Shown here piece by piece: positions 53 through 19,435 of a stretch of DNA of 64,000 nucleotides. This DNA is from Limimonas halophila (GTDB taxonomy: Bacteria > Pseudomonadota > Alphaproteobacteria > Kiloniellales > Rhodovibrionaceae): contig NZ_FNCE01000001.1 in the NCBI RefSeq assembly GCF_900100655.1, positions 248,001 to 312,000 of the forward strand, in the 5' to 3' direction. How positions within the stretch are numbered: position 1 is the stretch's first letter; the number at the start of each line of letters is the position of its first letter. Made by a program: the position numbers and the translations under genes. The notes under the pieces are model-generated. The model was given only the letters and a program-made list of their open reading frames with translations, had not been told where the DNA came from and did no database searches.

Positions 53-212
53 CCGCGTGCGGCGCTCCGGCATCGGGTCCACCTTCACCGTGCGGTCGTA
101 GGCCGAACGATGTGGCCGGACCCCAGAAGGGTAACGCGCCGTCCGTCGCCTTGGCCCCGCACCCGCTGCCGGGTTAGCCTGCTTCATGAGGCCGACACCG
201 GAGAGTTGCGCG

Positions 213-1457
213 ATGGTTCTGGTCCGCCTTCTTCGCTCCCTTGTCCATACGGGCAGCCTGGCGATCGTCGACGCCACGGGCCGGCGCACGCTGGTCGGCG
301 ACGGCTCGCCGCCGGAAGCCACGGTCCGCGTGCGGGGCTGGACGAGCGAGTTGGCGATCGCCGCGAACCCGGCGCTCAAGCTGGGCGAAGCCTATATGGA
401 CGGCCGCCTCGTCGTGGAAGCGGGCAGCATCTACGACGTGCTGGACGTCGTCGCGCGCAACCTCGGCACCGTCCGCAACGGTCCCATCATGGCCGCCCTG
501 GAAGGGCTGGGCGACCGGCTGGGCAAGGCCGGCCGCCTCAAGCGCGCGCGCCGGCAGGTGGCGCACCACTACGACCTCTCGGCACGGCTGTACGACCTGT
601 TTTTGGACGACGACCGGCAGTACTCCTGCGCCTATTACCGCGCGCCCGACGAGGACCTGGACACGGCCCAGCACAACAAGAAGCGCCACATCGCCGCCAA
701 GCTGAACCTGGACCGGCCGGGCCTGCGCGTGCTCGACATCGGCTCGGGCTGGGGCGGCCTGGGCGTTTATCTGGCCGAGACCTTCGGCGCCCACGTCACG
801 GGCGTGACGCTGAGCACGGAGCAGCTCAGCTATTCCCAGGCGCGGGCGGCGGCCTCGCCGGCGGCCGATCGGCTCGATTTCCAGCTCAGGGATTACCGCG
901 AGGTCGAGGGGCCGTTCGACCGCATCGTCTCCGTCGGCATGTTCGAGCACATCGGCAAGCGCAATTACGACTCCTTCTTCGCCAAGGTGCGCGATCTGCT
1001 CACGGACGACGGCGTCGCCCTCATCCACGCCATCGGGTTCGCCGATGCGCCCGGGCCCATTAACCCCTTCATGCGCAAGTACATCTTCCCGGGCGCGGAG
1101 TTGCCCTCGCTGTCGGAGGTGTTCGCGGCCGTCGAGCGCATCCGGCTGTGGGCGACGGACGCCGAGGTGCTGCGGCTCCACTACGCCATGACGCTGCGCG
1201 CCTGGCGCGAGCGCTTCATGGCGAACGCGGCGGACGCCGCGGCGCTCTACGACGAGCGCTTCGTGCGCATGTGGGAGTTCTACCTGGCCCTGTGCGAGAT
1301 CGGCTTCCGCCGCCGCACCAACATGGTCTGGCAGCTGCAGCTCACCCGCCGCGTCGACACCCTGCCCATCACGCGCGATTACATCGTGGACACGGAACGC
1401 CGGCTCATGGCGGCGGAGCGGGACGCGGCCCAGCAGCAACCGCACCACGCGGCGTGA
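213..1457 (+). CDS. cfa: cyclopropane-fatty-acyl-phospholipid synthase family protein
   Basis: SAM-dependent enzyme that methylenates double bonds of phospholipid acyl chains, making membrane cyclopropane fatty acids. The 414-residue protein has an N-terminal lipid-binding region, then the SAM-binding loop VLDIGSGWGGLG near residue 173, followed by EHIGKRNYDSFF in the catalytic half. Length is close to that of characterised CFA synthases. An ATG lies nine codons upstream at 186, but the one at 213 has a GGAGAG ribosome site at 200-205 and a hydrophobic start (MVLVRLLRSL), so it is preferred. The gene stands alone, 70 bases before the helicase gene. It could equally be one of the CFA-like methyltransferase paralogues common in this group. 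Confidence 0.9.
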   Translation: MVLVRLLRSLVHTGSLAIVDATGRRTLVGDGSPPEATVRVRGWTSELAIAANPALKLGEAYMDGRLVVEAGSIYDVLDVVARNLGTVRNGPIMAALEGLGDRLGKAGRLKRARRQVAHHYDLSARLYDLFLDDDRQYSCAYYRAPDEDLDTAQHNKKRHIAAKLNLDRPGLRVLDIGSGWGGLGVYLAETFGAHVTGVTLSTEQLSYSQARAAASPAADRLDFQLRDYREVEGPFDRIVSVGMFEHIGKRNYDSFFAKVRDLLTDDGVALIHAIGFADAPGPINPFMRKYIFPGAELPSLSEVFAAVERIRLWATDAEVLRLHYAMTLRAWRERFMANAADAAALYDERFVRMWEFYLALCEIGFRRRTNMVWQLQLTRRVDTLPITRDYIVDTERRLMAAERDAAQQQPHHAA

Positions 1458-4909: not shown

Positions 4910-6928
4910 CTACACCAGATCGCGCGGGATCGCGGTGTTCCAGGATTTGGCGCAGACGCGGGCGGTGCCCTCGTAGGCGTCCAGCGTGGCTTCCAGGTAG
5001 AAGTGCGTGGCGTCCGAGGTCAGGCGCGTGCGCGTGTAGGTCCGGGTTTCCCAGTCACCGCGGCGGAAGACGCGGTCCCAGGCGCACCAGCCCTCCAGCG
5101 TGTCTTCGTCGTCGTCGCGAACGGTGTAGGTCTCGCGCACGCGGCCGTGGACGGTCAGGCCGATGTCGTCGAAGCGCACGAGGCCCTGGTCGTAGAGCAC
5201 GTCCACCTGCGTTTGCGCCTCGGGCAGGTCGTGGGTGACCGTCCAGTGGCTGTCGGTCTCCGCCAGGCGCGTGACCGGCAGCGGCGGCGCGCCCTCCGGC
5301 GGGCCGAAGGCGGGCAGCTCGGCGTCGCTCGGCTGCGGCGGGCGCACCGGCAGGGTGAGCTGGCTCTCGCCCGTGTGGACCGTCAGCGTCACCGGCTCCG
5401 GCGCGGGCCAGGCCACGGGCCAGTACACCGTGGACAGCGACACGCGGATGGCGTGACCGGCCGGGAAGCGCTGGCCGATGTATTTCAAGGGCACGGTCAC
5501 GCGGTAGCGCTCGCCGGGTGTCAGCGGTTGCGGCTCGGCGTGGCCGTCGCGGTGGGTGAGGTTGAACAGCCCGTAGCTCACCCGCGTCGCCGAGCCGTCG
5601 GGGCGCACGTCGATCAGGCGCGCGCACACCATCGCCACGGGGCGGTCCACCGAGCATTCCAGCGTCACCGACGGCTGGCCCAGGATCTCGACATCCTCGG
5701 CCAGGGTGTCCGTCTGGAAGACGAGCGAGCCCGCGTCGTCGCCGCGCTGATCGGCCGGGAGGTCCGGCGGCGCCATGTAGGGGCACCACTTGCCCCCAAA
5801 CACGCCGGTCGTCAGCGGCGAGCGGATGGCGCGCGGCGCGCGCTCGCCGTCGTCGCTCGCCGCGAGCTGCCCCCGCGGCGTCAGCGTCAGCGCTGTGGGC
5901 TGGACGTTCGGGCCCGGCCAATCGTCCTCGGCCACCCAGCGGCCGGGGCGCTCGTCGTAGTGCGGCCGCGGCGGGGCGCTGTCCTGCACCCAGGCGCGCA
6001 CCATGGGCTCGGCCATGATCCCGGTGTCGACGCCCTTCAGCCAGTGGTCGAACCAGCGCAGGCACTCCTGCAGGAACCCGATGGCCGGGCCGGGCGAGCC
6101 GAAGTGCGGAAAGTTGTGCGCCCACGGCCCGATCAATGCCTTGCGCGGCACCGACAGCCCCCGCATCAAGCGGAAGATCGCGCTGACGTAGCCGTCGGCC
6201 CAGCCGCCCACGGTGTAGACCGGGCACTGGATGGCATCGTAATTCTCGCACACCGAGCCGTGTTCGTAGTAGCCGTCGCGGCGCTGGTGGTGCAGCCAGG
6301 TTTCCAGCCAGTGGCCGCTGCCGTGCAGGCGGTCCAGCCACATTTCCCGCCAGGACTCGCCCACCAGCGCGGGGTCGGGCGGGCAGCTGGTCTGCTCGAA
6401 CATCGTGGCGGCCCACGAAAGGTTATCCACCAGCAGCGTGCCGCCCATGTGGTGGATGTCGTCGGCGTAGCGGTCGTCCGTGGAGCCCAGCGTGATCACG
6501 CACTTGAGTTCCGGCGGCCGGAAGGATGCGAGTTGGAGCCCGTTGAAGCCGCCCCAGGAGATGCCGATCATCCCGACATCCCCCGTGCACCAGGGCTGGT
6601 CCGCCAGCCAGCGCAGCACCGCCAGGCCGTCGTCGAATTCCTGCTGGGTGTATTCGTCCGTCAGCACGCCGCCGGACTCGCCCGTGCCGCGGATGTCCAC
6701 GCGCACGCCCGCATAGCCGTGGCCGGCGAAATAGCCGTGCGTGTGGGCGTCGCGCTCGGCCGTCAGGTCGCGCTTGCGGTAGGGCAGGTACTCCAGGATC
6801 GCCGGGACCGGGTGCGCCTCGGCGTCGGCCGGGCGGCGGATGCGGGCGGCCAGGTGGCAGCCGTCCGGCATGGGGATCCAGGTTTCCTCCTCGATGACGG
6901 GGCGCGGAAAGGCGTCGCGGGTTTGCAT
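4910..6928 (-). CDS. CocE/NonD family hydrolase
   Basis: A 672-residue serine hydrolase of the X-Pro dipeptidyl-peptidase/cocaine-esterase family, which cleaves ester or amide bonds. The alpha/beta-hydrolase core includes the nucleophile elbow MIGISWGGFNG with Ser124, a likely acid in YTVGGWADGY and a likely catalytic His in GPWAHNFPH. A cap domain lies within the core, and the C-terminal ~250 residues form the jelly-roll domain typical of the family. No signal peptide is seen, so it is probably cytoplasmic. A paralogue of identical length lies at 40607-42625. The natural substrate cannot be read from the sequence and no neighbour suggests one. Confidence 0.85.
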   Translation of the reverse strand: MQTRDAFPRPVIEEETWIPMPDGCHLAARIRRPADAEAHPVPAILEYLPYRKRDLTAERDAHTHGYFAGHGYAGVRVDIRGTGESGGVLTDEYTQQEFDDGLAVLRWLADQPWCTGDVGMIGISWGGFNGLQLASFRPPELKCVITLGSTDDRYADDIHHMGGTLLVDNLSWAATMFEQTSCPPDPALVGESWREMWLDRLHGSGHWLETWLHHQRRDGYYEHGSVCENYDAIQCPVYTVGGWADGYVSAIFRLMRGLSVPRKALIGPWAHNFPHFGSPGPAIGFLQECLRWFDHWLKGVDTGIMAEPMVRAWVQDSAPPRPHYDERPGRWVAEDDWPGPNVQPTALTLTPRGQLAASDDGERAPRAIRSPLTTGVFGGKWCPYMAPPDLPADQRGDDAGSLVFQTDTLAEDVEILGQPSVTLECSVDRPVAMVCARLIDVRPDGSATRVSYGLFNLTHRDGHAEPQPLTPGERYRVTVPLKYIGQRFPAGHAIRVSLSTVYWPVAWPAPEPVTLTVHTGESQLTLPVRPPQPSDAELPAFGPPEGAPPLPVTRLAETDSHWTVTHDLPEAQTQVDVLYDQGLVRFDDIGLTVHGRVRETYTVRDDDEDTLEGWCAWDRVFRRGDWETRTYTRTRLTSDATHFYLEATLDAYEGTARVCAKSWNTAIPRDLV

Positions 6929-7103
6929 GGGGCACCGTGGGTGGGGGGTTGGCAGTCAATCGCTGGGCGGCTCACAGAGGCGTGAGGCTCGCCGCTCGGC
7001 GACGCCTTCGCAAGGGGGAGGTGGGTGCGACCGTCTCCGGTCGAGGGGTTGGTTCGCGGCCACGCGCGACCATCTTTTCACCCAAACACCGATCGCGGGG
7101 AGG

Positions 7104-7865
7104 ATGCGCGTGCGCACACGGGCACTTGGATCGCTGGTGCTGGCCGCGGGCCTGGCGGCGCAACCGGCGGCGGCCGGGTCGTGGCAGGACCTGTTGGGAA
7201 AGACGTTGGACCCTGTTCCCACCGAGAAACCGGCCCAGACAGAACAGCGCGATGGCGAGCAGCTCGACACCGCCACGGTCGCGGGCGGTCTGAAGGACGC
7301 GCTGCGACTGGCGGTCACGCGCACGACCGAGCGCGTGGGCCGGCCCGGCGGCTTCGGCGAGGATCCCGACATCCACATCCCGCTGCCCAAGACGCTGCGC
7401 ACGGTGCAGGACACGCTGGAGCGCGTGGGCATGGCGGGCACGGCGAACGAGCTGGAAAACCGCCTCAACCGCGCGGCCGAGCAGGCGGCGCCCGAGGCGC
7501 GCGACATCCTGATCGACGCCGCGATGCAGATGCAGCTCGCCGACGCGCGCAAGATCCTCACCGGCCCGGACGACGCGGCGACGCAGTACTTCCGCCGCAC
7601 CTCGTCCGAGGAGCTGCGTGCGGCATTGCGTCCCATCGTGGACGAGGAGTTGGCGGATGCCGGCGCCTTGCAGACCTACGAACAGATCGTGCAAGCTTAC
7701 GACGAAATTCCGTTCGTTTCGGCGCCGACCGCGGACATGACCGGCTACACCGTGGGCAAGGCACTGGACGGGATTTTTCACTACGTCGCCAAGGAGGAGG
7801 CGCGCATCCGCGAGAACCCGGCGGCGCGCACGACCTCGCTGCTGAAGACGGTCTTCGGCGGGTGA
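7104..7865 (+). CDS. DUF4197 domain protein, exported
   Basis: A 253-residue protein with a signal peptide (about residues 1-24, ending AAQPAAA) and a DUF4197 domain covering the rest. Family-like segments are IHIPLPKTLRTVQDTL, a helical stretch with TGPDDAATQYFRR, and a C-terminal helix ending in LLKTVFGG. Members are helical envelope proteins of unknown function. The open frame extends 88 codons further upstream, but this ATG has GGGGAGG directly before it and begins the signal peptide. The DUF2244 gene follows after 24 bases and may be cotranscribed. Confidence 0.85.
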   Translation: MRVRTRALGSLVLAAGLAAQPAAAGSWQDLLGKTLDPVPTEKPAQTEQRDGEQLDTATVAGGLKDALRLAVTRTTERVGRPGGFGEDPDIHIPLPKTLRTVQDTLERVGMAGTANELENRLNRAAEQAAPEARDILIDAAMQMQLADARKILTGPDDAATQYFRRTSSEELRAALRPIVDEELADAGALQTYEQIVQAYDEIPFVSAPTADMTGYTVGKALDGIFHYVAKEEARIRENPAARTTSLLKTVFGG

Positions 7866-7889
7866 ATTCCGGCGGCGGGAGGTGTTCCG

Positions 7890-8369
7890 GTGGGTGAGGC
7901 CAACGTACCGCTGTTTCACGCCGACCTGTGGCCGCATCGCTCGCTGAAGCCGAGCGGGGCCGCCGTCGTGTTCGGGCTCTACGCGCTGCTCGCCACGCCC
8001 ATCGTCATCAAGGCCGCCATCCACGGTTTCTGGCCCATTCCGCTGCTGATGGGGCTGACGCTTGCGGGGATGCTCGCGGCCTACCTGATCAACCGGCGCG
8101 GCGGCCGCATGCTGGAGCGCCTGGAGCTGACGCCCCGCGCCCTGCGCGTGGAGCGCCGGATGCCGGGCGGGGCGGTGCAGCGGTGGCGCTTCACGCCGGG
8201 CTGGGTGCGGGTCGCGTTGGCGGAGCGGCGCGCGGGCGACAACCGCCTGACGCTGACGGAATCCGGCCGCCGGCTGGAGGTTGGCGGATTCCTTTCCCCG
8301 GACGAACGCCGCGAGGTCGCCGACGCCCTCAACGACGCCCTGACGAAGGCCCGCTCGGCCGCGCTCTAA
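7890..8369 (+). CDS. DUF2244 domain membrane protein
   Basis: A 159-residue protein with two adjacent hydrophobic segments (about residues 23-44 and 48-66) followed by a soluble beta-rich region (LELTPRALRVERRMPGG onward), the layout of DUF2244 integral membrane proteins. In other proteobacteria these are often linked to cytochrome oxidase genes, but none is present here. It starts with GTG at 7890, preceded by a GGGAGG site. Its stop overlaps by four bases the stop of the convergent MBL gene. Function unknown. Confidence 0.8.
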   Translation: MGEANVPLFHADLWPHRSLKPSGAAVVFGLYALLATPIVIKAAIHGFWPIPLLMGLTLAGMLAAYLINRRGGRMLERLELTPRALRVERRMPGGAVQRWRFTPGWVRVALAERRAGDNRLTLTESGRRLEVGGFLSPDERREVADALNDALTKARSAAL

Positions 8370-11762: not shown

Positions 11763-13109
11763 TCAGGCCGCCTGCACGTCCGCCAGAAAGCGGTCCACCT
11801 TCTCCCGCAGTTCGCGAGACTGCTGGTTCACGCTGCGCACGGTCGCGAGCACCGACTCGCTGGCTTCGCCGGTATGGCTTCCTGTTTCGTCCACCCGGGA
11901 CACCGCTTCGCGCGTGTTTTGGGCGCCTTCCGACGCGACCTGAGCGCTGCGCGCGATTTCCTGCGTGGTCTGGGCCTGCTGTTCCACCGCGCTGGCGGCG
12001 TGGGTGGCCGCTTCCTCGATGCTCGCAATGCGGCCGGCGATGGCGTTGATCGCTGCCACGGCCTCACGGGTTTCCCGCTGAATGCGCTCGATGCGCTGGG
12101 AGATGTCCTCGGTCGCCTTCTGCGTCTGGTTGGCGAGCGTCTTCACCTCGTCCGCCACGACGGCGAAGCCCTTGCCGGCCTCGCCGGCGCGCGCCGCCTC
12201 GATCGTGGCGTTGAGGGCCAGCAGGTTGGTCTTCTCGGCGATGTCCTGGATCTGCTGCACGACCGAGCCGATCTGGTTCGCGGCTTCGGCCAGGGAACCG
12301 ATCTGTTCGCTCGCTTGATCGGCCTCGCCGCGCGCGGCCTGAGCCTTCTCGCTCGACTGGCCGATCTGATCGCGCACGTCGGCAATGGCGGTGGAAAGCT
12401 CTTCGGCCGCCGCGGCGACGCTCTGGACGTTGTCCGAGGTTTCCTTGGCGGCGTCCACGGCGCCCTTGGATTCTTGCGCCGCGGAATCGGCGACGTTTTT
12501 CATCGAGGCCGCAGTGTCCTCCAGGCTCGTCGTGGACTGCGTCAGCGAGTCCACGATCGAGGCGACGTTGCTTTCGAAGGTGGCGGAGAGGTCCTGCACG
12601 GCGCGCTCTTTTTCGCGCTTGTTCTCGTCCATGTAGGTCGAGATCGCCAGTTCCATGTCCAGCATCACGGCCTTTTGCAGGGCCGCCATGGCCCGCCCGC
12701 GCTCGGCGCGCTTGCCGGTGCCGACCGGCGTGTCCAACCGCTCGGCCACGCGGCGCATGAGCGCGCTTGCGACGAAGGCGTAGCCGCCGATGTACCACTG
12801 CGGGTCGAGCCCGTGGACGTGGTGGGCGTGCCCCACGTTGCGCACGGTCTGCATGTAATCGTCGTCAAAATCGGCCTGGAACAGGCGCAGCCAGTGCTCT
12901 TTCTGCTTGCGCTTGACCTCGTCCATCTTGACGTCGCTGTCGAACATCCCGCGCATGTCCGGCCACCGCCGGAGGTGGTCGTAAAACGCGTCCAGAACGG
13001 GCGGGATTTCTTCGCGAAGAATGGGCAGCAGGCCGCGAAGGGTCTCGCGGTCCGCGTCGCCGAGCTGCATGAACGCAAGACGCTGTCCCAGGCTTTCGGT
13101 CGTGCTCAT
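11763..13109 (-). CDS. globin-coupled methyl-accepting chemotaxis protein (HemAT-like)
   Basis: A 448-residue soluble chemoreceptor. Residues ~1-160 form a protoglobin sensor domain; the segment [19 protein letters not shown] carries the expected heme-ligand histidine (about His96). Residues ~170-445 form a coiled-coil signalling domain whose hairpin tip includes [19 protein letters not shown], the CheA/CheW contact site. No membrane segment is present. It should bind oxygen through heme and drive aerotaxis. No che genes lie nearby, so it must use a chemotaxis system encoded elsewhere. Confidence 0.9.
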
Positions 13110-14486: not shown

Positions 14487-14512
14487 GGAACCGAAGCCGA
14501 TCACCGCGCGTT
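14487..14512 (+). promoter_or_regulatory. EcfG-type promoter of the 14563 PRC-barrel gene
   Basis: GGAAC at 14487-14491 and CGTT at 14509-14512 are separated by exactly 17 bases, a full match to the alphaproteobacterial general-stress consensus GGAAC-N16/17-CGTT. The start codon follows 50 bases after the -10 box. Six more sites with the same spacing lie between 17.8 and 20.7 kb. Confidence 0.75.
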
Positions 14513-14562
14513 CCTGGCATGCATGGCAAATGGTCATGACGACGGCAAAGGAGGATGGATCC

Positions 14563-15291: not shown

Positions 15292-15927
15292 TCAGCCCTG
15301 CGTGTCGCGGTCGCCCAGCTGCGCGCGCAGGTGCCGCAGCAGGTTCGGAAGCAGGTTCAGGACCTCGTCCTTCCCCAGGTCCGTCGCCAGGGCGATCTGC
15401 TGGACGCTCAGCCCGGCCACCGCCAGGCCGGCGATGCGGCGCTCCAGATTGGTGAACGCCGTGCCGCGGTGCCGCACGGCCCGGCTTAGCAGGGTTTCCA
15501 GCTTGCCCGTATCCACCGGCTTGACGCACCACCCAACGCAGGCTGTGGCGCGCAACTGGGCGACGGTATCGGCATTGCTGTAGGCCGTGACGTAGACGAG
15601 CCCGGGCGCGCTCGGCAGGCGCTCGATCGTCCTTGCAGCCTCGATGCCGTCTCCCTCGCCCTTCAGGCGCACGTCCATCAGCACCACGTCGGGGCGCGTC
15701 TCCCGTGTCAGCGAGACCGCTTCCGCCGCCGTTTCCGCGATCCGGTCGATGACGGTATAGCCCATGCGCTTGACGCGCGTGGCCAGGTCCAGCGCCGTCA
15801 GGCGCTCGTCCTCGACGACCAGAACGCGTGTGGTGCCGTGATGCGCGGGCCCGCCGTACCCGGGGCGGGGCCGGCTTTCGCCGGTCGTGGCGGTGCTGGC
15901 CGGGGCGGTCGAAATGGCGGTTTGCAT
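15292..15927 (-). CDS. CheY-like response regulator
   Basis: A 211-residue protein. Residues ~33-150 form a receiver domain with the acidic pair in VVEDE, phospho-acceptor Asp in VLMDVRLKGEGDG, Thr in VYVTAYS and Lys in CVKPVD. The C-terminal ~60 residues are helical and match no output domain I recognise; LAVAGLSVQQIALATDLG is faintly helix-turn-helix-like. It lies 29 bases downstream of the sensor kinase gene and is its likely partner. It is not PhyR: the receiver is N-terminal and there is no sigma-like domain. The longer open frame reaching 17046 is a shadow of the kinase gene. Confidence 0.85.
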   Translation of the reverse strand: MQTAISTAPASTATTGESRPRPGYGGPAHHGTTRVLVVEDERLTALDLATRVKRMGYTVIDRIAETAAEAVSLTRETRPDVVLMDVRLKGEGDGIEAARTIERLPSAPGLVYVTAYSNADTVAQLRATACVGWCVKPVDTGKLETLLSRAVRHRGTAFTNLERRIAGLAVAGLSVQQIALATDLGKDEVLNLLPNLLRHLRAQLGDRDTQG

Positions 15928-15956
15928 GGTGCCTCCATAGAGGGCTGCAATCAGGT

Positions 15957-17102
15957 TCAAGGGGTCGTTTCGGGCGAAAAACGGACCGTGAGCCGGGTTC
16001 CGTGGTCCGAGGCGACCTCGTGCGATGCGCCGATCTGGCGCGCCAGCGCATCGATCATCATCGAGCCGATCGAGGCGGTCTTCCTGCGCGGCCGGTCCGG
16101 GTCGATCCCGACCCCGGTGTCGGCGACGCTGAATTCGACGACGCCGTCCGCGGTTTGGTGGAGGTCCACGCGGATGCTGCCGCCGGTTTCGTCCGGGAAG
16201 GCGTGAACGAAGGCGTTGGTGATGGCTTCGTTCGCGATCAGGACGAGCGGATTGGCGCAGTCCAGCCCGATCGTGCAGGGTTGGATATCCGTTTCCATAT
16301 CGATTTTCCCGTCCTCGTCGTAGATCGATTGAATATTTTCTGCCGTGTCTTTGATGGTGTCGCCGATATCGATCGAATAGGTGTCGTCGGATACGTGCAG
16401 GTGCTCGTGGATCTTCGACATGGCCAGGATGCGGCGCTGTGCCGTGGCCAGGTGCGGCGCCAGATCCGCATCCGCCTGGTCCTCCTGCAGCCGCAGGATA
16501 CTGCTCATGATTTGCAGGTTGTTCTTCACCCGGTGGTGAATTTCCTGAACCAGCAGCTTTTCGCGGGCGACTTGCTGGCGCAGTTGGTCGTTGGCCTTGC
16601 GCAGCTCCGTTGTGCGTTCGTCGACCCGCATCTCCAGGTTTCGGTTGAGGGCCGCAAGCTCCTCTTCCGCCTGTCGGCGGCGAGTAACCTCCGCTTCCAG
16701 TTCGGTGTTCGCCGCGCGCAACTCCGCGGGGCTCGGCATCGCAAGCGCGTGGGGCATCGCCTGCCACATCGCCGCGAGGCTCAGCAGCGACACCACGGCC
16801 GTGCCCGCCTTCACCAGGCCCTCCACGGCGTAGTCCGGGTTCCACAGCACCCACACGCCCATGAAGTGCGTGCTGCCGCAGGCGAGCACGAACAGACCCG
16901 TCAAAATGAAGAGGTAGCGAAACGCCAGATCGCGCCGCTTCGATGCGAAGACGACGAGCACGACGGGAATGCCGTAATAGGCGATCCCCGTCAGCGCGTC
17001 GGAAACCGCGTGCAGCCATAGAATTTCGGGCTCCCAAAGAAAGCACATGCCGTGGGGCATGAAATCCTCCGTCGAGAGCCAGTCGCCGATAAGCTGCGTC
17101 AC
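15957..17102 (-). CDS. sensor histidine kinase with ethylene-receptor-like membrane domain
   Basis: A 381-residue membrane kinase. Residues ~25-115 hold three hydrophobic segments that align by eye with the plant ETR1 ethylene-binding domain: Asp35, Tyr42 and Pro46 in SDALTGIAYYGIP, Cys75 and His79 in LACGSTHF (the copper-binding pair in ETR1) and Lys98 in VKAGTAVVS. A coiled coil (about 125-180) leads to a HisKA_2 phospho-acceptor box EIHHRVKNNLQ (probably His190) and an HATPase domain (NEAITNAFVHAF, DTGVGID). Copper-dependent ligand sensing is inferred; the real signal might be something other than ethylene. It forms a two-gene unit with the response regulator at 15292-15927. Confidence 0.88.
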   Translation of the reverse strand: MTQLIGDWLSTEDFMPHGMCFLWEPEILWLHAVSDALTGIAYYGIPVVLVVFASKRRDLAFRYLFILTGLFVLACGSTHFMGVWVLWNPDYAVEGLVKAGTAVVSLLSLAAMWQAMPHALAMPSPAELRAANTELEAEVTRRRQAEEELAALNRNLEMRVDERTTELRKANDQLRQQVAREKLLVQEIHHRVKNNLQIMSSILRLQEDQADADLAPHLATAQRRILAMSKIHEHLHVSDDTYSIDIGDTIKDTAENIQSIYDEDGKIDMETDIQPCTIGLDCANPLVLIANEAITNAFVHAFPDETGGSIRVDLHQTADGVVEFSVADTGVGIDPDRPRRKTASIGSMMIDALARQIGASHEVASDHGTRLTVRFSPETTP

Positions 17103-17844: not shown

Positions 17845-18633
17845 TCAGGGCCCGCTCGCGGTCGGCCAGCGCGCGCCGGGGTCGGCGGTGTCGAGCGCCC
17901 GGAGCACCGTCGCGGCGATCGCGGCGAAGTCGTCGACGCGCCGCGGCGCCACGACGGCGACGCCAAGGTGCGGCTCCTGGCCCACGCCCACGTGGTAGCC
18001 GTTGCGTCGCACGTGGGTCAGGCCCTGGCCGGCGGGGGCAACCGGAGTCCAGCAGTAGACGGTAATCATGAGCCCGTCCGGCCGCTCATAGGCCAGAACG
18101 CTGGCCGGTTGGCCGTGGGTGGGGAGAACGCGGGCGCCCGCAAAGGTGTAGCCGAGATCCGACAGGTCCGGCGGCATGATGCCGGTTCCGAACGCCTGAG
18201 CGCTCCAGGTCCAGAAGGCGTCCACGGCGTCGGCTCGGAAGTCGACACCCGGTCGGCCCACGCGCGCCAGGTGATGGTGCGCCGTGGTCGCCCGGTCGGC
18301 CAGCCCCGCGACACTCGCGCGCTGAGTCGAGGCCGTGACATCGGGCCAGGGGGCGCCCGCCAGCCACCAGACCGCCAGCAGGACGGCCGCCACAAGGCCC
18401 GCGGCCGGGATCAGCGCGCGTGCGACCCGGCCGCCCCGCAGCCGCCGCTGACCACCGCGGTCTGCTGGCCGGGCGAGCTCACGCAGGGCCGCATCCGTGC
18501 GCCGCAGCTCCTGAACGTGCTCGGCCAGATCCGGGTGGTCGCGCAGATGGGCGAGCACCGCCAGCAGGCGCGGGCCGCGCAGCCGCCCGTCGAGGAGATC
18601 CTGAAGCTCGTCGTCCGTCGGCGGTTCAGTCAT
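17845..18633 (-). CDS. membrane-bound anti-sigma factor
   Basis: A 262-residue protein with a cytoplasmic N-terminus that resembles anti-sigma domains (MTEPPTDDELQDLLDGRL, then HLRDHPDLAEHVQEL), one transmembrane helix at about residues 73-93 and a ~170-residue periplasmic sensor region. The classic His-X3-Cys-X2-Cys zinc motif is absent. It is divergent from the ECF sigma gene at 18902, the usual layout for a cognate pair, so it probably holds that sigma factor at the membrane until a signal arrives. The assignment rests on layout and context more than on close sequence similarity. Confidence 0.7.
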   Translation of the reverse strand: MTEPPTDDELQDLLDGRLRGPRLLAVLAHLRDHPDLAEHVQELRRTDAALRELARPADRGGQRRLRGGRVARALIPAAGLVAAVLLAVWWLAGAPWPDVTASTQRASVAGLADRATTAHHHLARVGRPGVDFRADAVDAFWTWSAQAFGTGIMPPDLSDLGYTFAGARVLPTHGQPASVLAYERPDGLMITVYCWTPVAPAGQGLTHVRRNGYHVGVGQEPHLGVAVVAPRRVDDFAAIAATVLRALDTADPGARWPTASGP

Positions 18634-18901: not shown

Positions 18902-19435
18902 ATGCCTTTGAACAAGGATATGTTGGTTCCCGAAATCCCTCACCTCCGGCGTTACGCCCTCTCGCTCACCCGCGACCCGGCGCAGGCGGACGATCTGGTT
19001 CAGGATTGCCTGGCCCGGGCCATCGAAAAGCGCGCGCTCTTCCGCACCGGTACCAACCTGCGCGCCTGGATGTTCGCCATGCTGCGCAACCTCTTCCGCA
19101 ATTCGGTGCGCAGCAGCCAGCGCAAAGAGGCGGTGGTGGACGACGACGCCGCGACCCTGCGCTGGTGCCATGCCCCGCAGGACGGCTACACCGAGATGTG
19201 CGAGGTCGCTCGCGCCCTCGACACCCTGTCCGCGCCGCATCGCGAGATCCTCACCCTCGTCGTCGTCGAGGGCTGGTCCTACGAAGAAGCCGGCGCCCGC
19301 CTGAACGTGCCGGTGGGGACCGTGCGCTCGCGCATCGCCCGGGCGCGCGGCGAGCTGACTCAGCGCCTGAAGACCTACGGGGCGCACGAGGCCGCCGCCA
19401 GCGGGCAGGTGGCGATGCCGCGCGGACCCGGCTGA
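18902..19435 (+). CDS. ECF-family RNA polymerase sigma factor, EcfG-like
   Basis: A 177-residue ECF sigma factor. Sigma-2 (about residues 8-75) includes EIPHLRRYALSLTRDPAQAD and GTNLRAWMFAMLRNLFRN; sigma-4 (about 105-160) includes LDTLSAPHREILTLVVVEG and VPVGTVRSRIARARGEL, which would contact the -35 box. These segments resemble the alphaproteobacterial general-stress factor EcfG. An AAAGGAG site precedes the ATG. A divergent membrane anti-sigma gene and seven GGAAC-N17-(T/C)GTT promoters lie within 5 kb, so it is the best local candidate to recognise them, although a canonical EcfG elsewhere in the genome could do so. Confidence 0.88.
   Translation: MPLNKDMLVPEIPHLRRYALSLTRDPAQADDLVQDCLARAIEKRALFRTGTNLRAWMFAMLRNLFRNSVRSSQRKEAVVDDDAATLRWCHAPQDGYTEMCEVARALDTLSAPHREILTLVVVEGWSYEEAGARLNVPVGTVRSRIARARGELTQRLKTYGAHEAAASGQVAMPRGPG

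Follow-up and report, generated by a model that had tools for sequence, protein, structure and literature searches.

Two adjacent genes on the minus strand of the window, by which we mean the whole 64,000-nucleotide stretch of Limimonas halophila DNA that was analysed, very probably encode a bacterial two-component system of the ethylene-receptor type, a family that is already known. The first gene (15957..17102) encodes a sensor histidine kinase and the second (15292..15936) its response regulator. Judged from the sequences, the full proposal, in which a Cu(I)/ethylene-type sensor acts through a HisKA_2 core on the adjacent LuxR-like regulator, is a likely one.

The sensor kinase and its ETR1-like domain

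The open reading frame 15957-17102 is real and lies on the minus strand, a detail missing from the first-pass annotation. It has a GTG start and encodes a protein of 381 aa. This start is plausible because the residue numbers then equal those of AzoEtr1 from Azospirillum brasilense. Kinase residues 27-122 (16737..17024, minus strand; G000:C1:264737-265024 in genome coordinates) form the three-helix membrane domain ETR1_N (Pfam PF25487), which is matched over profile positions 2-97 of 97 with E=6.6e-33 and 113.3 bits, the curated cut-off being 27 bits. As a sequence match this is far beyond chance. The ETR1-like sensor domain claimed in the first-pass annotation is borne out by this curated match together with the copper-site residues and the identity to the AzoEtr1 domain (~53-55%), and the similarity to the ETR1 N-terminal profile, whose absence was to count against the claim, is strong.

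The remainder of the protein consists of a HisKA_2 domain at residues 187-261 (minus strand; PF07568, E=8.2e-22) and an HATPase domain at residues ~281-376 (minus strand; PF13581, E=1.9e-10; PF02518, E=1e-8), so that both the dimerisation/phosphoacceptor domain and the ATPase domain of the HisKA_2 class are matched. The predicted structure, which is of low confidence (mean pLDDT 54.6), places helices at residues 25-54, 59-87 and 89-115, followed by a long helix that would span residues ~125-209 (minus strand). Among solved structures searched by sequence, the matches cover the kinase core only and not the sensor.

The putative copper and ethylene site

In the alignment to AtETR1 the kinase has D35, Y42, I45, P46, C75, H79 and K98 all in place. 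Their counterparts in AtETR1 are D25, Y32, I35, P36, C65, H69 and K91, in agreement with the published positions. The identities of the seven binding residues of AtETR1 were reportedly established by Wang et al. in 2006. Six of the seven are identical in the kinase and the seventh, Ile62, is replaced by Val72. The first-pass annotation had named Asp35, Tyr42, Pro46, Cys75, His79 and Lys98, and each of these is confirmed; its list did not contain I45 (the conserved I35) or V72 (I62). The spacing is also as claimed, except for the H79-K98 loop, which is 3 residues shorter than that of AtETR1 and is shortened in the other aligned bacterial members as well. All seven residues are required for ethylene binding in AtETR1, and the positions published for AtETR1 and AzoEtr1 agree with the alignment used here (PMC11819568), the copper ligands of AtETR1 being Cys65 and His69 (PMC12744750).

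Across the 42 bacterial rows of the alignment, counted after duplicate window copies had been taken out, 38 retain the copper-site Cys, while the His is present in 41 and the Lys in 40. As the kinase conserves these Cys, His and Lys columns, its copper site is intact, and homology argues strongly for copper dependence of the sensor domain. At the I62 column 36 of the 42 rows have Ile and two have Val, namely the kinase described here and L042. By sequence comparison the change from I62 to V72 is thus conservative but uncommon. The ETR1_N-like domains of four other proteins (L019 at 6395-8290, L054, L055 and L057) have lost the Cys of the copper site along with further binding residues, and they may possibly have been re-purposed away from copper or ethylene sensing.

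The adjacent response regulator

The first-pass annotation had given the kinase a response regulator of its own, and this is found at 15292-15936 on the minus strand, encoding 214 aa with a Response_reg match (Pfam, E=2.9e-16). Its receiver has the phospho-acceptor Asp, the Thr and the Lys in place. The regulator gene starts 20 bases after the stop codon of the kinase gene (intervening bases 15937..15956, minus strand), and the two genes probably form a single operon. The kinase is the only ETR1_N protein and also the only HisKA_2 kinase found by profile searches of its own genome, so there is no close paralogue competing for the regulator. Moreover, two further genomes of this class have an ETR1_N-HisKA_2 kinase immediately next to a receiver gene, placed upstream in L078 and downstream and overlapping in L079, which supports the pairing of kinase and regulator and means that the architecture is not unique.

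The C-terminal 59 aa of the regulator match GerE with E=0.016, under the Pfam cut-off. The predicted structure of the protein is of low confidence as a whole (mean pLDDT 48.7) and puts helices at 163-173, 178-185 and 189-207 in this C-terminal block, where the pLDDT is ~59-78. A helix-turn-helix of the LuxR/GerE type is therefore only a weak assignment, although a probable one.

Proposed mechanism and the nature of the signal

Most likely C75 and H79 of the three-helix membrane domain would be the ligands of Cu(I), and the copper site would bind ethylene or a comparable small pi-ligand. D35 and K98 may link this site to the long helix, which in turn would set the activity of the HisKA_2 core. 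Phosphate would then be exchanged between the kinase and the regulator encoded 20 bases downstream, and the regulator probably alters transcription via its LuxR-like C-terminal domain. What the sequences show is the identity of the domains, the conservation of the residues and the pairing of the genes. From homology we infer that the kinase binds ethylene and copper, and we also infer the direction of signalling, the binding of the regulator to DNA and its target genes.

The copper-binding fold could have been kept for a natural signal other than ethylene, such as copper itself, the redox state, or a different small ligand, for example CO. V72 deviates from the canonical ethylene-binding set, and ETR1_N occurs widely among bacteria, where it is joined to diverse outputs (PMC7700396); both observations fit such a signal. 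Nevertheless K98 and six of the seven binding residues are unchanged, and the sensor is close to an AzoEtr1 domain that does bind ethylene, so we regard a different signal as unlikely. A narrower version of the ethylene proposal takes the pair as an ethylene receptor that works through HisKA_2 on its own DNA-binding regulator without a PAS or GAF relay, compact and directly transcriptional, and tolerating Val at Ile62; this we put forward tentatively, as somewhat less than an even prospect.

Neighbourhood and the question of stress control

The first-pass annotation placed the kinase inside a stress island and suggested that its signal may feed into stress control. The expression 'stress island' describes the neighbours and nothing more. 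An ECF sigma gene with a Pfam PhyR_sigma2 match lies at 18902-19435 (plus strand), and divergent from it, at 17845-18633 (minus strand), is a gene resembling that of a membrane anti-sigma factor, for which neither Pfam nor NCBIfam gives a match. The neighbourhood further encodes two PRC-barrel proteins as well as small membrane proteins. A perfect EcfG-type promoter consensus (GGAAC-N16/17-CGTT) is present at 14487-14512 (plus strand), just 5' of the PRC-barrel gene at 14530, whereas base composition would, on our own estimate, give ~0.7 chance matches over the whole window. A second ECF gene of the PhyR_sigma2-matching kind is located at G000:C1:552942. In addition, 11763-13109 (minus strand), ~2-3 kb from the kinase operon, encodes a fusion of a protoglobin and an MCP signalling domain by Pfam, a putative chemoreceptor of the haem gas-sensor type.

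It could be supposed that the kinase, like other HisKA_2/HWE kinases, acts on the general stress response of alphaproteobacteria (PhyR-NepR-EcfG). The best NCBIfam match of its core is PhyK, although the score of 93.9 bits is far short of the cut-off, 750, and the receiver of the regulator is most like that of PhyR, at 79.7 bits against a cut-off of 240; the sigma gene at 18902-19435 with its PhyR_sigma2 match would also suit this pathway. However, searches of the same genome, which is estimated to be 100% complete, for NepR, PhyR_sigma2 and the PhyR family gave no NepR by profile and no PhyR over the cut-off, the sigma-like and receiver parts occurring in separate proteins only. Moreover, the anti-sigma-like membrane protein gene stands divergently beside the sigma gene and the kinase has its own regulator. 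The link was rejected as unsupported and we consider it very improbable: the likeness to PhyK and PhyR reflects the HisKA_2 class and is no evidence of the general stress pathway, and proximity, which is all that ties the sigma factor to the kinase, is the sole basis of the stress-control idea.

Distribution and origin

The ETR1_N domain was presented in the first-pass annotation as unusual, but it belongs to a known bacterial family. It is found in 31 of the 378 good-quality genomes of the class and in 9/61 genomes of the order, a patchy distribution. By motif, HWE-type kinase cores are also carried on an ETR1_N sensor (L023 and L024). The domain tree is mostly unresolved and does not join the three HisKA_2 members into a single clade, but they may still share one origin. 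The nearest relatives of the kinase's ETR1_N domain in the tree are L008 and L009 (84/72 support), on MAG contigs labelled Shewanella and Geopsychrobacter. The domains of these two are very similar to each other, which suggests transfer or mis-binning. A further supported group consists of L035, L038 and L041, in which an ETR1_N domain makes up a protein of ~140-150 aa by itself, without a kinase, and every copper-site residue is kept (domain content by Pfam for L035 and L041); they come from small genomes of 2.0-2.4 Mb. Viral or phage carriage of ETR1_N was rejected since no relative was found in viral contigs and phage matches fall on the kinase core only, and a foreign origin was rejected since 2-kb GC values round the locus lie at 66-69%, near the 69.7% of the window, with no sharp step. 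The assembly yielded no SSU rRNA.

Comparison with known systems

Ethylene receptors are well established as a family in bacteria, many proteobacterial and cyanobacterial proteins with ethylene-binding domains and varied outputs having already been described (PMC7700396), and the kinase class found here departs modestly from the usual architecture. The system does not point to biology of a new kind. If ethylene is bound, it would be a small two-gene system in which sensing is possibly tied straight to transcription, and a case beyond the studied cyanobacterial and Azospirillum ones. Its chief use would be comparative, as it offers an I62V variant that occurs in nature and shows the same sensor joined to another class of kinase.

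Among proteobacterial relatives AzoEtr1 is the best characterised. Its residues 1-130 bind ethylene when expressed in Pichia, while receptors with D35A or C75A do not rescue biofilm formation (PMC11819568). Besides the ~53-55% identity of the ETR1_N domains, D35, C75, H79 and K98 carry equal numbers in both proteins, and the order of a kinase gene and then an adjoining response regulator gene is shared with AzoEtr1/AzoRR-etr1 (PMC11819568). However, AzoEtr1 is a protein of 525 aa in which a PAS domain accompanies a HisKA core, whereas the present kinase is without PAS and has a HisKA_2 core, and AzoEtr1 keeps all seven binding residues whereas here I62 is V72. AzoRR-etr1 is also shorter, with 135 aa and no output domain, against 214 aa and a probable HTH in the regulator described here. 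SynEtr1 (Slr1212) of Synechocystis likewise has an N-terminal ethylene-binding domain, a C-terminal kinase and a response regulator output (PMC6682694), but contains a cyanobacteriochrome light-sensing domain that is absent from this kinase. PhyK and LovK have a kinase core of the same HisKA_2/HWE class (PMC5964349) and differ in the sensor and in their PhyR/NepR partner, none of which was found in this genome. Finally, plant ETR1 and ERS1 share the three-helix domain and the Cys/His copper site, whereas they have GAF and other domains, signal through CTR1 and possess a TM2-TM3 loop that is 3 residues longer than the one in this kinase.
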